Positions 328 to 6,214 of a stretch of 64,000 nt of DNA are shown piece by piece. The notes below the pieces were generated by a model. It did not search any database. It worked only from the letters and a program-made list of their open reading frames with translations, and was not told the DNA's origin. Position numbers and translations under genes: made by a program. Positions within the stretch are counted from its first letter, which is position 1. Each line of letters opens with the position of its first letter. Source of the stretch: Pseudobdellovibrionaceae bacterium (GTDB taxonomy: Bacteria > Bdellovibrionota > Bdellovibrionia > Bdellovibrionales > UBA1609); NCBI GenBank assembly GCA_018663505.1, contig JABJQG010000072.1:1-64000 (forward strand). Direction: 5' to 3'.

Positions 328-362
328 GTTTACAGAGGTGTCAACCTGACACCTCTGTAAAC
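328..362. repeat. Perfect 16-bp inverted repeat
   Basis: The arms 328-343 and 347-362 are exact reverse complements around a 3-nt loop (ACC); the core reads GAGGTGTCA...TGACACCTC. No U-tract follows on either strand, so it is not an ordinary intrinsic terminator. It could be a REP-type repeat or a dyad operator upstream of the radical SAM operon. Confidence 0.6.
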
Positions 363-463
363 TGTACAATATACTTATTTCAATATTATTTTCTAATTAG
401 ATGTAACTCACTGAAATAATTAGAGCTATTGTTGAATTATTTACTAAATGAGTCCCCTCATCT

Positions 464-479
464 TGGCTTGAAATTTGCT
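464..479 (+). promoter_or_regulatory. Sigma-54 (-24/-12) promoter of radical SAM operon
   Basis: The sequence TGGCTTG (464-470), four bases, then TTGCT (475-479) matches the RpoN consensus TGGCACG-N4-TTGCW with exact GG-to-GC spacing. Transcription would start near 490, about 20 nt before the ATG at 510. The operon encodes its own NtrC-type activator (3749-5221), which supports the call. Confidence 0.8.
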
Positions 480-509
480 AGTAATATCACTGAATTGGAG
501 TCATAAATA

Positions 510-1784
510 ATGAGCATAGTACGTCAGTATAAAAATATTGTAAGTTTTAAAGACTCCTCTGGGAAGACCTTAGCTTTTCACTCTCAAAATCTTGAAGTGG
601 CAGAGATAGATCAAGAGGCTTGGTCCGCCTTTGAAAGCCAATCAGGAGAGGCCTTTAACGAGATCGCCTCTTGGAGTGAAGAAGTAAATGATCAAGTGTC
701 TGACTCATATTTTGAAGACCATATTAATCAGCTTTCCATAAATGTATCTCAAATTTGCAATCTAGCCTGCACTTATTGCGCAGCAGACGGAGGCACCTAC
801 AAAGCACAAAAGCCCATTGCAGATCTCAATATTGTTTATAAACAACTGGATCAATTCCTTAAACCCATAAAAGATGGCGGAAGCTTTCACATCAGATTTT
901 TTGGAGGCGAGCCCTTACTTTACCCTGATCATATAAAAAAAATGGCTGACTATGCAAAACTTCTAGTTGCGGGACGTGATATTGACCTAAGAATGAAGAT
1001 CACCACAAACGGCACCCTTATAGACGAAAAAAGGGCTCAGTTACTAGCTGATTACAATATGGAAGTGGCTATTAGCATTGATGGGCCTGAGCAGATTAAC
1101 GACCAAACACGCCCTGCAAAAAACAAAAAATCCACTACACAGATGATAATTGAAGGTTTGAAGACACTAGCTAAGCATAGGGATCAGTTAAAAACCCTAC
1201 GTGTTATCACTGTATTCGGTGAACATAACCTAGATGTTATGGGCACTTATGGTTTTTTAAAGCAGTTTAATTTTGACAGTTACAGCTTTTCTTATGCCAG
1301 AAGTGAAAACGATGTCACGGTGAGTCCACAATTTATGAAAAATTTTAAAGAAACCATTTACTTCATACTCAAAACTTATGGAATTAACGAAGTCTTAAAG
1401 ATTATCCCCATTCGGAATTTTGTGTTAAGGTTGCAGTATCAGGCCCGTAATTTGAATCATTGTGGAGTAGGAAAAAGCTCAATACAGTCTGATACTAGTG
1501 GTAATCTCTTTGGGTGTAATTGGTGGATGAGTGATAGTAGTGAGGTTATTGGAAAGGGAGCTCAGATTTTTAAAGACAAAGTGGCTCCATTTAAAAAGGA
1601 TCTTGTTGATCTGCACAATTGCCAAACCTGTTGGGCAAAAAATTTATGTGGCGGAGGGTGCATGTTTGTAAATAAACAATCCTCTGGCGAGAAACACATT
1701 AAAGACAAATTCTTCTGTGAACGAACAAAAGAACAGGCTCAAATTGGATTAGAAATTTTTAATAGATTTAGTTTACAAAATTAA
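510..1784 (+). CDS. Radical SAM/SPASM peptide maturase
   Basis: This 424-aa protein should cleave S-adenosylmethionine at a 4Fe-4S cluster and modify a peptide in the cytoplasm. The cluster motif CNLACTYC (CX3CX2C, Cys83/87/90) sits after an 80-residue N-terminal extension that may bind the substrate. The C-terminus is a full SPASM domain: a Cys followed by GX4C, then CX2CX5CX3C (CQTCWAKNLCGGGC), then a last Cys, which is the pattern that holds two auxiliary Fe-S clusters. SPASM enzymes usually act on ribosomal peptides (PqqE, MftC) or on protein subunits (anSME, QhpD). A 35-codon ORF follows 11 nt downstream, so a RiPP role is favoured. The start has a TTGGAG ribosome site about 9 nt upstream. 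The exact substrate is unknown. Confidence 0.9.
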   Translation: MSIVRQYKNIVSFKDSSGKTLAFHSQNLEVAEIDQEAWSAFESQSGEAFNEIASWSEEVNDQVSDSYFEDHINQLSINVSQICNLACTYCAADGGTYKAQKPIADLNIVYKQLDQFLKPIKDGGSFHIRFFGGEPLLYPDHIKKMADYAKLLVAGRDIDLRMKITTNGTLIDEKRAQLLADYNMEVAISIDGPEQINDQTRPAKNKKSTTQMIIEGLKTLAKHRDQLKTLRVITVFGEHNLDVMGTYGFLKQFNFDSYSFSYARSENDVTVSPQFMKNFKETIYFILKTYGINEVLKIIPIRNFVLRLQYQARNLNHCGVGKSSIQSDTSGNLFGCNWWMSDSSEVIGKGAQIFKDKVAPFKKDLVDLHNCQTCWAKNLCGGGCMFVNKQSSGEKHIKDKFFCERTKEQAQIGLEIFNRFSLQN

Positions 1785-1795
1785 AGGAGAGTAAC

Positions 1796-1903
1796 ATGAA
1801 GCATATCAAAAAAACTAAGCCCACTAAAGTAAATAAGGCTTACTTAGATAAACATAAACACGAAGTTATTAAACAGGCTGGCTGTGAAATAGTATATACC
1901 TAA
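1796..1903 (+). CDS. Candidate precursor peptide of the radical SAM enzyme (35 aa)
   Basis: A short ORF begins 11 nt after the maturase stop, with a strong Shine-Dalgarno (AAAGGAGAG) 5 nt before its ATG. The product is very basic in its first 26 residues (ten Lys and three His) and ends AGCEIVYT, with one Cys, one Glu and a Val-Tyr pair near the C-terminus. This is the layout of a leader followed by a short core. The ending recalls, without matching, mycofactocin precursors (which end in Val-Tyr) and PQQ precursors (Glu and Tyr crosslinked). That it is translated and modified is inferred from position, ribosome site and composition. Confidence 0.65.
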   Translation: MKHIKKTKPTKVNKAYLDKHKHEVIKQAGCEIVYT

Positions 1904-1919
1904 TTGACTTAACTATCTA

Positions 1920-3734
1920 ATGTATATACAAAATGTTTTTAATTTTCTAAAGAATAATATTAACTATGGCCGAGTCATGAGAGTTGGCTTTGCTATTGTT
2001 ATTTCTATCATTATTAGTAAATTAAATTTAGACTTTGTGGAGGGCTGGACATATAACGCTCGAGTCAGTCTCCAGACCCCTCAAAAAATATCTGACAAAA
2101 TTAAACTCATTTCCATAAAGCAAAAACAAACACCTTTATTAAAAGATCTTCTGGAAACCTTAGAAGCCATTAAAAAACAAAAACCAGATCATTTTGTGTA
2201 TCTTGCAGACTTAGAACTCTTAAAAGGCAATCGTGAAGAAAAATCTCAGTTTGTTAATTTCTTTAATGAAAATCCTAACTTCCATATTTCTACCGTTCCA
2301 CAAAAAAAAACAGCACAAAAAATGGGGCACCCATTCAATAAATTAAGAACTCGAGAATTACACGCTACCTCTGATAAATACTCCTTTGCCAAGGATAATG
2401 TAACTCGTAGACTCATTCTAACGGCCTTCAATAAAGAAAATATAATTCAAACTATTGCTAGCAACTATACTAATAAGTCTGCAAAAAGTTATTCAGGCGC
2501 TTATAAGTACTATGACTCAATTCAATTATACTTTAAATATTTGCCACCAAAGAGCTTTAGCAGCATTGCCTTTTCAGATTTATTGAGCGCTCCAGAGATT
2601 AGTGACTTAAGTAATAAAATTATATTTATGGGCGCAGATAACGAGTATTCTTCAACAGACTACATTAAATCCCCTTATTCTAAGTCTCGTACTGAGTATA
2701 CATTTTTAGAACTCCAGGCCACTCTTCTTAATACATTATTGAGTGACAGTGGTATCTCCAGGTCCTCCCCCTGGGTAAATAATATTTCAATATTTGTCGT
2801 AGCATTAATTACAGTTTTTTCCGTATTCACATTAAAACCAATTACAGGACTATATATTTTATTTGCTACTTTTTTTACATTTTCAAGCGTGGGGTATTTA
2901 GCTTTCAACTTCTTTGGATACTGGATTGATATGGCACATTCATTTTTAGCCATATTCTTATGCTATTACTTTTTTATCCCCTATCGCCTGATCAAAGAAA
3001 ATAAGAAAAGCTTTGAATATCAGGAACATAATAAAATGCTTTCCAAGGTTGAGGAGCTTAAAACTAATTTTATGCGAATGATGTCTCATGATTTAAAAAC
3101 CCCTTTAGCTCGTATACAAGGGCTAACAGACGTCGTAACAAGCACTTCTGACAATCTATTGCCTCAGCAGAAAGATGCTTTAAAAAGTATTTCTAAATCT
3201 AGTTTTGAACTTACGGTCTTTATTGAGACAATTTTAGATCTTAGTAGAGTGGAGTCTAACGAAGTGAAGCTTCAATTACACAGCAAAGATATTAATGCTG
3301 TACTTACCCAAGTGATTAAAAAATGTGAATTCCTAGCAAAGGAAAAAAACATTTCTATAATCACAGAGTTTGAACCTATGTTTAGTATTAAGGTTGACGA
3401 AAGCCTACTTAAACAGGTTTTTACCAACCTCATAGAAAATGCTATTAAATACAGTCCTGCGGACTCTCGAATTCTAGTAAGTTCTGAAGAATTTAACAAT
3501 CAGATGATAATTCAAGTGGCCGACCAAGGTAAGGGCATTGATGAAGAAGAGCAATGTCATATTTTTGATAAGTTTTTTAGAAGTAGAGATGCTAAAAATT
3601 CCACAACTGCCGGCTCTGGCTTAGGACTTTATCTTTCAAAATATTTTGTAGAACTGCACAAGGGATCTATTCAGGTGGATAGTGACGAAAACAAAGGGTC
3701 TACATTTACTGTAAACCTACCAATGAATTTATAA
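1920..3734 (+). CDS. CHASE2-type sensor histidine kinase
   Basis: A 604-aa membrane kinase. A first transmembrane segment (about 20-36) is followed by a roughly 250-residue extracytoplasmic region with CHASE2 character, then a set of hydrophobic segments (about 288-352) typical of CHASE2 proteins. Next come a HisKA domain with phospho-acceptor His390 (SHDLKTPLAR) and an ATPase domain with N box NLIENAIKYSP, G1 box DQGKGID and G2 box GSGLGLYLSK. It should sense a periplasmic signal and phosphorylate the regulator encoded 14 nt downstream. No clear ribosome site precedes the ATG, so translation may depend on upstream genes. Its place right after the peptide gene suggests it controls, or responds to, the modified product. 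Confidence 0.88.
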   Translation: MYIQNVFNFLKNNINYGRVMRVGFAIVISIIISKLNLDFVEGWTYNARVSLQTPQKISDKIKLISIKQKQTPLLKDLLETLEAIKKQKPDHFVYLADLELLKGNREEKSQFVNFFNENPNFHISTVPQKKTAQKMGHPFNKLRTRELHATSDKYSFAKDNVTRRLILTAFNKENIIQTIASNYTNKSAKSYSGAYKYYDSIQLYFKYLPPKSFSSIAFSDLLSAPEISDLSNKIIFMGADNEYSSTDYIKSPYSKSRTEYTFLELQATLLNTLLSDSGISRSSPWVNNISIFVVALITVFSVFTLKPITGLYILFATFFTFSSVGYLAFNFFGYWIDMAHSFLAIFLCYYFFIPYRLIKENKKSFEYQEHNKMLSKVEELKTNFMRMMSHDLKTPLARIQGLTDVVTSTSDNLLPQQKDALKSISKSSFELTVFIETILDLSRVESNEVKLQLHSKDINAVLTQVIKKCEFLAKEKNISIITEFEPMFSIKVDESLLKQVFTNLIENAIKYSPADSRILVSSEEFNNQMIIQVADQGKGIDEEEQCHIFDKFFRSRDAKNSTTAGSGLGLYLSKYFVELHKGSIQVDSDENKGSTFTVNLPMNL

Positions 3735-3748
3735 AAAAGGGAGAACTC

Positions 3749-5221
3749 ATGTTTAAAATACTAGTTGTAGATGATGATGCGGGGCTTCGGCTTTCGGTAA
3801 AATCAGCTTTATCCTCTACCAATCAATATGAACTTGATGAGGCCTTTGATGGCATTAACGCCATGGAGAAAGTAAAACTTCAAAGATACGATATGATATT
3901 ACTTGATGTGGATATGCCAAGGTTAAATGGCAAGGAAGCGCTTAAACTCATAAAAGCTCATGACCCATCTATAATAGTTATTATTATGACTGCTTTTGCA
4001 AACATCAACGATGCTGTTGAAGCCGTTAAAGAAGGGGCTTATGATTATGTTTCAAAGCCCATTAAAGGCGACGATCTTACTGATATGGTAGAACATGCTT
4101 TTGCTGCTAATAGCTTAATCTCAGATGTGGCTGTGTCAGCCCCAATTCTTATGGATGCTGGTCGAAAAATTATTGGAAACACAGCACAGATGCAAAAAGT
4201 GTTTCATATTATTAACCGTCTTTCTAAAGTAGACACCCCTGTTTTAATCAGAGGCGCTTCGGGTACAGGTAAAGAGCTCGTGGCCCGTGCTATCCATAGT
4301 AACTCTACACAAAAAGCTGGGCGTTTTGTGGCTATTAACTGCTCTGCCATTCCAGAAAATCTATTTGAAAGTGAACTTTTTGGTCATGAGAAAGGCTCCT
4401 TTACTGGGGCTGATCAACGAAAAATTGGCAAGTTTCAATTTGCAGAAAACGGAACTTTGTTTTTGGATGAGGTGGGTGACATGCCTCAACTGATGCAAGT
4501 TAAACTCCTAAGAGTTCTACAGGAAAAAGTTTTCACTCCGGTGGGGTCCAATAGAGAAATTCAATCCCAGGTTCGCATTATTGCAGCCACAAATCGTCCC
4601 TTAGAAAAAATGTTTTCTACAAATGAATTCCGTGAAGATCTTTACTACAGACTCAATGTGATGCCCATTACATTACCGTCTCTGTCTGAAAGAAAAGAAG
4701 ACCTCAACCATATGATTAATTTATTTATTAATAAATTCAATAAAACTCATGGCCGTAAAATTCAGGGAATTACACCTTCGGCCCTAAGCTGTTTGGTAAA
4801 ATATGACTGGCCAGGAAATATTCGTGAGCTTGAGAATGTTATTGAGCACTCGTTTATTTTAGAAGAAAAAAGTAAGATCAGTCTACAAGCTCTTCCCGAG
4901 ATTATCCTGTCAGCATCTGGTATTGACATCACTTCCATTAACCAAAATACCGAGCTTACAGAGACAGAGGTTTCGGAGCCTACTGATAGTAACACCCCAA
5001 CTGAGAACTCCTCTACAAGCCTCTGGAATATGGATAATTTAAATAGTGATACTTTAGACTTCAATCGTCAAAAAGAGGAATTTGAAAAGGAATTTATCAT
5101 TAAAGCCCTGCAAACTTTTAATGGACGAATCAACCAAACAGCCTTACATGCGAATATTCCAAAGAAGACCTTATTAAGGAAAATTGAAAAATATGGTATT
5201 ATAGCTAAAGATTACACTTAA
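3749..5221 (+). CDS. NtrC-family sigma-54 response regulator
   Basis: A 490-aa activator with three domains. The receiver (1-120) has the acidic pocket VVDDD and phospho-acceptor Asp53. The AAA+ domain has Walker A GASGTGKE (about 169-176), the sigma-54 contact loop GSFTGA (216-221, Ser replacing the usual second Ala) and Walker B FLDEVGDM. The C-terminus is a Fis-type helix-turn-helix (INQTALHANIPKKTLLRK). A Ser/Thr/Asn-rich linker of about 40 residues precedes the DNA-binding domain. It is probably the partner of the CHASE2 kinase and the activator of the promoter at 464-479, which would close an autoregulatory loop. Ribosome site GGGAG precedes the ATG. Confidence 0.93.
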   Translation: MFKILVVDDDAGLRLSVKSALSSTNQYELDEAFDGINAMEKVKLQRYDMILLDVDMPRLNGKEALKLIKAHDPSIIVIIMTAFANINDAVEAVKEGAYDYVSKPIKGDDLTDMVEHAFAANSLISDVAVSAPILMDAGRKIIGNTAQMQKVFHIINRLSKVDTPVLIRGASGTGKELVARAIHSNSTQKAGRFVAINCSAIPENLFESELFGHEKGSFTGADQRKIGKFQFAENGTLFLDEVGDMPQLMQVKLLRVLQEKVFTPVGSNREIQSQVRIIAATNRPLEKMFSTNEFREDLYYRLNVMPITLPSLSERKEDLNHMINLFINKFNKTHGRKIQGITPSALSCLVKYDWPGNIRELENVIEHSFILEEKSKISLQALPEIILSASGIDITSINQNTELTETEVSEPTDSNTPTENSSTSLWNMDNLNSDTLDFNRQKEEFEKEFIIKALQTFNGRINQTALHANIPKKTLLRKIEKYGIIAKDYT

Positions 5222-5261: not shown

Positions 5262-5414
5262 TCCCTCTCACAAATCCATATAAATCAATGATTTTAAAGG
5301 CTTGCCTTATCAAACCCGCTGTCAACGCTTAACGCGAATTTATGATTTTGTCATTTTTTCAATTTTCATGTTGCTCGCAAAAGCACTCCAATGTACTTTT
5401 CTGCTCTTATGGTC

Positions 5415-5948
5415 ATGTCAAATCCACCTCCACAAGCCTATACACGCGAGACCCTCGCTGAAGCCTACGCCTGGTTTAATAACCAGCCGGATGGGGCTGT
5501 TATCAGAGCGACTTCAGCCGACCAGCTTGTGAGCCTGTATTTACGCTCTAAAAGAGCCCCAACAAATGGTCATAAAGTTGTTAACACCACAGAAACCCAT
5601 CCCATTAGCTCTCAATCCTTTAAATCTGAGCTTAAAGAGTTGGCCGAAGGAATTCGACAATTTGAAACCACAGAACCAGTTCCTGCTCCGCAAGTGGCTT
5701 TCAACCCTGCGCCCATTGGAATGGCTATGCCTGAGGTTGAAATAGAAACCATGCGTAACCCAACCTCCCCCTCCACTGTTACTTTTACTCAAAAATCTGT
5801 AGAGGTTTCTGCCCAGGATCAACTGGATGACAAGAGTTTGGAAATGTTAAAATCCGTTCGTAACCGCTTTAATCTAAGTAGTAATGACGAAGCTCTGAGA
5901 ATGCTTCTTGTTCTTGGCTATGAATCTTTAAACAAAATCTTTAAATAA
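5415..5948 (+). CDS. Hypothetical protein with possible RHH-like C-terminus
   Basis: I do not recognise this 177-aa protein. I chose the ATG at 5415 (MSNPPPQAYTRETL) over the in-frame ATG at 5391 because the sequence looks globular from there; neither start has a good ribosome site. Residues 1-50 look folded (an AEAYAWFNNQPDG stretch), the middle is Pro/Thr/Val-rich and probably disordered, and the last 40 (MLKSVRNRFNLSSNDEALRM...) resemble a ribbon-helix-helix segment, which would fit DNA binding. It is followed 25 nt later by the large palindrome at 5974-6144. Function is open. Confidence 0.7.
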   Translation: MSNPPPQAYTRETLAEAYAWFNNQPDGAVIRATSADQLVSLYLRSKRAPTNGHKVVNTTETHPISSQSFKSELKELAEGIRQFETTEPVPAPQVAFNPAPIGMAMPEVEIETMRNPTSPSTVTFTQKSVEVSAQDQLDDKSLEMLKSVRNRFNLSSNDEALRMLLVLGYESLNKIFK

Positions 5949-5973
5949 AATTAATTCCTAAAATCTGAGATGC

Positions 5974-6144
5974 GTATACTGAGAGGCATTTCATTAAATC
6001 ATTCTCATTGCCATTTTGAATATTTAACACCAAAAGGCTCAGACATGCGGTTCTCGCCCTTTGGGCTGCGATCCGAACTCGCTTTTGGCGCTAAATATTC
6101 AAAATGGCAATGAGAATGATTTAATGAAATGCCTCTCAGTATAC
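5974..6144. repeat. 171-bp element with perfect 53-bp inverted arms
   Basis: The left arm 5974-6026 and right arm 6092-6144 are exact reverse complements over all 53 positions. Inside, CCAAAAG (6030-6036) pairs with CTTTTGG (6082-6088), and the tip holds GCCC-TTT-GGGC (6056-6066). No ORF lies within it and no obvious target-site duplication flanks it. It could be a foldback or MITE-like element, a very long terminator between the upstream hypothetical and ileS, or an RNase III substrate. Confidence 0.9.
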
Positions 6145-6214
6145 TCAATTAACATCTTGCACACTTTGATAACTCCAAACTTTGTTTATTCTTCTCTATC
6201 TCCCCTCTGAAGGA

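Follow-up and report, generated by a model that had tools for sequence, protein, structure and literature searches.

Short precursor peptides encoded beside radical SAM/SPASM enzymes are known from several systems. SCIFF peptides carry six Cys within about 45 residues and belong to mostly clostridial hosts, PqqA contains a conserved Glu and Tyr arranged as E-X3-Y, and MftA ends in Val-Tyr. In the SCIFF maturase CteB, the N-terminal domain is a leader-binding RRE. Another maturase, PapB, forms its bond between Cys and the carbon adjacent to a carboxylate, across a gap of 0-6 residues (PMC9413430). In addition, radical SAM RiPPs of streptococci (RaS-RiPPs) are reported to be controlled by the Rgg/SHP signalling system, to which they are genetically tied (PMC13361665). 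Here, we compare these systems with a locus in the window, that is, the whole 64,000-nt stretch of Pseudobdellovibrionaceae DNA that was analysed. As judged from sequence, the locus encodes a previously undescribed RiPP-like precursor family together with a CteB/PapB-like maturase, found only in Bdellovibrionales and lying inside a two-component operon (Table 1). Our main reading, to which we assign a probability of roughly 0.6, is that the 35-aa product is the precursor of a Cys-modified, ranthipeptide-like RiPP acting in a CHASE2 kinase/sigma-54 two-component circuit.

Table 1. Features of the locus, with positions in the window
Feature	Position	Strand	Details
Perfect inverted repeat	328-362	.	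16-nt arms, 3-nt spacer; TGTCA-N3-TGACA at 339-351
Sigma-54 type -24/-12 promoter (predicted)	463-480	+	TTGGCTTGAAATTTGCTA; score 15.6 of 17.4, p 0.01 versus shuffles
Peptide maturase (radical SAM/SPASM), RRE-like domain at N-terminus	510-1784	+	424 aa
Ribosome-binding site of the peptide gene	1784-1789	+	AAGGAG
Precursor peptide gene	1796-1903	+	35 aa, ATG start; product MKHIKKTKPTKVNKAYLDKHKHEVIKQAGCEIVYT
N-terminal recognition motif (putative)	1796-1813	+	MKHIKK; part of precursor peptide
Codon of invariant Cys30, C-terminal core	1883-1885	+	conserved among relatives
CHASE2 sensor histidine kinase	1920-3734	+	604 aa; Pfam CHASE2, HisKA, HATPase_c; a direct neighbour at almost every locus
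Sigma-54-dependent response regulator, NtrC type	3749-5221	+	490 aa; Response_reg, Sigma54_activat, HTH_8
185-aa protein, no Pfam family	5391-5948	+	flanked by regulator and IleS at most loci in Bdellovibrionales

The initial annotation had proposed that this ORF might encode an unrecognised RiPP precursor belonging to a new family, with a Lys/His-rich first part and with Cys30, Glu31, Val33 and Tyr34 towards its end; it made no mention of a linked kinase, regulator or promoter elements. The composition and the residue positions are correct, and the proposal of a new family is borne out, as a maturase gene adjoins the ORF and none of the NCBIfam and Pfam models matched the 35-aa peptide. The ORF has a good ribosome site and starts 11 nt past the stop of the radical SAM gene, and a gap of 16 nt separates it from the histidine kinase gene. 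Comparable ORFs are present at every radical SAM locus examined, purifying selection acts on the peptide (dS 0.33-0.57 and dN 0.03-0.10 for close pairs, few of which are independent), and the MKHIKK start motif occurs a single time in the 3.78 Mb genome; the ORF is therefore a genuine gene, beyond chance.

Named relatives of the maturase were retrieved with an alignment query, a single-sequence query of genome contigs having returned no matches. The maturase is present in 8 of the 47 genomes of the window's family (that of the window included, the others at 37-43% identity) and matched in 79 of the 141 genomes of the order, and 80 of the 369 phylum genomes carry the radical SAM family, all 80 within Bdellovibrionales. 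Its named relatives likewise belong to Bdellovibrionales, including Bdellovibrio bacteriovorus kdesi and Bdellovibrio sp. qaytius, and database matches beyond these relatives have at most 30% identity. Plasmid matches were set aside as generic radical SAM proteins (25-28% identity among the matches listed).

Within the window's family, the short ORFs directly behind the maturases start with MKHIKK or a similar motif and have their only Cys close to the C-terminus. The initial annotation would have been refuted by homologous loci lacking such a peptide, but the peptide was found at all 76 radical SAM loci examined at which the maturase end was available, 74 by motif and two by eye (L089 and L090, ending ...GCRPLGEV and ...GCRPSGIE), and a further one lies behind a truncated maturase in G103, beyond these 76 loci. 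One locus (L050, in G095) has two tandem precursor peptides behind its maturase, MNTKTQHIKK...LSCIPIG and MKTTTTKHVKK...LACIPSGLPNSSSN. With 115 of the 141 genomes of the order carrying it, the CHASE2 kinase outnumbers the maturase, so that kinase loci without the radical SAM gene serve as a control; the signature peptide preceded the kinase in none of 31 such loci. The short gene both adjoins and strictly co-occurs with the maturase gene (76/76 versus 0/31), as expected of a RiPP pair. In a tree of the kinase sensor, two genomes without the radical SAM gene (G038 and G086) nest among carriers. The flanking gene and the kinase are kept in G038, where the radical SAM and peptide genes are both gone, and its upstream neighbour is homologous to that of the carrier relative G042, indicating that what is missing is a single cassette of maturase and peptide. 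This joint absence, together with the nesting of both genomes among carriers, indicates that the two genes come and go together. The maturase-less locus of G086 (L235) has a small Cys-less ORF, MKKMNQENQ...GGGGTKPPFT, with a good ribosome site upstream of the kinase, which may be a relic left in the peptide's place after loss of the enzyme. Upstream neighbours showed no conservation across families.

The gene order, with the radical SAM gene followed by the peptide, the CHASE2 kinase and the sigma-54 regulator, and often then by the 185-aa protein and IleS, is kept across three families. Locus L135, in G077, departs from this order: its best regulator match is encoded upstream of the maturase gene and on the strand opposite to it, not behind the kinase. 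The 185-aa protein reads PPQAYTRETL... in relatives, and its link to the cassette is uncertain. Between its gene and IleS, the window contains a palindromic element (5960-6158) with 77-nt arms of 90% complementarity, of which about 40 related copies are present elsewhere in the genome, as in a REP/MITE-like interspersed repeat. Many genomes have the kinase without the radical SAM and peptide genes, showing that the peptide is not essential to the kinase. Only five kinase positions separated peptide-bearing from peptide-less genomes, and these were dropped because they are confounded by kinship. The literature search returned no paper joining CHASE2 sensors with radical SAM enzymes and, for Bdellovibrio, no RiPP of this kind. 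A parallel for the genetic link with signalling is that of the streptococcal RaS-RiPPs, whose regulators are reported to be Rgg/SHP (PMC13361665), whereas those encoded here are a CHASE2 kinase and a sigma-54 regulator.

Among NCBIfam models, PapB (NF047865) matched the window maturase best, at 181.5 bits against a cut-off of 340 that was not reached, and the SCIFF maturase model (TIGR03974) gave 136 bits against a cut-off of 425; for every maturase model listed, the score of the protein falls short of the curated cut-off. The PapB model also matched all ten members of the maturase family that were scanned. The best PDB match by sequence is CteB (1.5e-47; sulfatase maturase, 3e-19), and a Foldseek search with the AlphaFold model (pLDDT 94) identified CteB as the nearest solved structure by fold as well, with residues 7-421 aligned to CteB 1-450 at a Z of 36.1, N-terminal domain included. 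According to this model, the maturase carries an RRE domain with a putative leader-binding role. The layout of its SPASM Cys was read against the known pattern of cluster ligands in anSMEcpe and CteB. All 60 of 60 homologues retain seven SPASM Cys, with no eighth between C318 and C336, which predicts that AuxI has three protein Cys ligands and a site open for a substrate thiolate. The residue after C336, where anSMEcpe has its catalytic Asp, is P, N, Q or V and never Asp in the 60 homologues, and the maturase is predicted to lack a sulfatase-type base. The system resembles CteB/SCIFF (PDB 5wgg/5why) in its combination of RRE, radical SAM and SPASM domains with a full-length fold match, its predicted open AuxI site, and its precursor gene next to the maturase gene, but differs from SCIFF in its restriction to Bdellovibrionales and in having one Cys near the C-terminus of the peptide.

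A conservation profile of 73 peptides from radical SAM loci reveals a conserved precursor family. The Cys is invariant (73/73), is the sole Cys in 71 peptides, and lies 3-12 residues, mostly 4-6, from the C-terminus. An HIKK-type N-terminal motif is present in 69 peptides, and Gly occurs at -1 of the Cys in 42 and at -3 in 44. C-x-P is found in 66 peptides and C-P-E in six, and the window peptide, with the core CEIVYT, is the only member with neither; this atypical core suggests that its function may be diverged. In addition, its E-X2-Y spacing and VYT end are not conserved in the family. Among the residues highlighted in the initial annotation, Cys30 alone is a family feature in this alignment, whereas Glu31 and Tyr34 are not. 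Of the crosslinks suggested at Cys30 or Tyr34, the Cys thioether survives.

These profiles also bear on which chemistry the maturase may perform. The initial annotation had drawn an analogy with the Glu-Tyr target of PQQ and the Val-Tyr target of mycofactocin, and a C-C crosslink or decarboxylation at Glu31/Tyr34 or Val33/Tyr34 would suit the residues of the window peptide and the presence of the mycofactocin maturase among the weak NCBIfam matches. In PqqA/PqqE and MftA/MftC, too, a short precursor is placed beside a radical SAM/SPASM enzyme. The analogy does not extend to the family, however: Tyr follows the Cys in only 2 of the 73 peptides and an acidic residue in 30, Glu is not conserved at the matching positions, neither target pair is conserved, and the maturase is nearest to the CteB/PapB type, with PqqE a far weaker fold match (Z 17.8), leaving such chemistry with only a very slight chance. 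Alternatively, the maturase could oxidise the peptide Cys to an aldehyde (formylglycine), so that the peptide becomes a reactive signal or cofactor. Sulfatases are matured at a C-x-P-x-R motif, Arg is found at +4 (CIPVR) in 18 of the 73 peptides besides the frequent C-x-P, and anSMEcpe, an anaerobic sulfatase maturase (PDB 4k36-4k39), is a further fold match (Z 32.3). We nevertheless consider this improbable, in view of the missing catalytic Asp, the absence of the extra AuxI Cys of anSME in all 60 homologues, the seven peptides without C-x-P, that of the window included, and a maturase sequence much nearer to CteB. Of the chemistries considered, a thioether at the Cys is the likeliest. PapB is the best family match, and the usual distance of the lone Cys from the C-terminal carboxylate is in keeping with PapB/PapA; unlike in PapA ranthipeptides, CX3D/E repeats are absent and an acidic residue follows the Cys in fewer than half of the peptides, which means that PapB chemistry is not directly transferable.

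For regulation, 46 loci were scanned for -24/-12 sites with weights set by hand and with shuffled sequences as control. A GG-N10-GC core precedes the radical SAM gene in 39 of the 46 loci, and 35 of the 46 reach p<=0.05 versus shuffles. The occurrence of this site in most loci suggests autoregulation, and the NtrC-type regulator likely activates its own operon. The inverted repeat of the window lies about 110 nt upstream of the -24/-12 promoter and is a candidate site for upstream activation by the sigma-54 regulator that the cassette itself encodes. Five other loci of the window's family that have the radical SAM gene likewise carry TGTCA-N3-TGACA, or a sequence close to it, upstream, as do most of that family's kinase loci without the gene, and the palindrome search in the other two families yielded no shared motif. 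The genome contains three exact TGTCA-N3-TGACA sites, equal to the chance control, and only that of the operon has a sigma-54 site, the other two having none; the idea of a genome-wide regulon reached through this motif was dropped on these grounds.

The same promoter elements are relevant to the role of the peptide. The maturase substrate might have a role of its own, as a bacteriocin, metallophore or cofactor, with the kinase and regulator merely controlling its production. The sigma-54 promoter and palindrome, which suggest that the regulator controls the operon, would agree with this, as would the occurrence of the kinase-regulator pair without the peptide. However, no exporter, immunity or protease gene was seen in the cassette, peptide and kinase are adjacent across three families, and the radical SAM gene is limited to one order; we therefore hold this explanation to be unlikely, though deserving of consideration. 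A further possibility is that the ORF is an unmodified leader, regulatory or toxin-like ORF and that the radical SAM enzyme has another target. Modification of the peptide is something that we infer, as are its bond type, the acceptor residue and the action of the peptide on the kinase, which leaves some room for this alternative, but the strict co-occurrence and joint absence with the radical SAM gene, the HIKK and single-Cys pattern, and the RRE domain of the enzyme make it highly improbable.

The reading that we prefer, a Cys-modified ranthipeptide-like RiPP within the two-component circuit, can be outlined as follows. The ORF would encode a precursor that is made on the ribosome and turned into a small modified peptide by the radical SAM enzyme; the maturase would bind the basic HIKK leader through its N-terminal RRE domain. 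The enzyme would then act on the single C-terminal Cys, most likely forming a sulphur-to-carbon thioether with a nearby residue, as in ranthipeptides or sactipeptides, and the bond may lie beside a carboxylate, as with PapB. Because most of the peptides have no acidic side chain after the Cys, the acceptor could be a residue near C-x-P, a group on the N-terminal side, or the carboxylate at the C-terminus. The modified peptide may provide an input to the CHASE2 kinase and sigma-54 regulator or act as their accessory, and the regulator probably turns on the whole operon from TGTCA-N3-TGACA and the -24/-12 promoter, forming a positive feedback loop. More tentatively, and with less than even confidence, the modified peptide may be a self-made signal or sensor cofactor of these predators; the CHASE2 kinase would sense it and in turn activate a sigma-54 regulon to which the operon itself belongs, with the single-Cys C-x-P modification being a new one.

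Collectively, in the cassette distributed across this one order, a CteB-like enzyme is combined with a minimal substrate containing one Cys, and its gene order hands the product to a two-component system. The peptide offers a simple substrate for studies of Cys chemistry, thioether formation or otherwise, and is a candidate ligand that can be tested on the CHASE2 kinase in predatory bacteria. If the proposed circuit is true, it would constitute a self-reinforcing RiPP two-component circuit.
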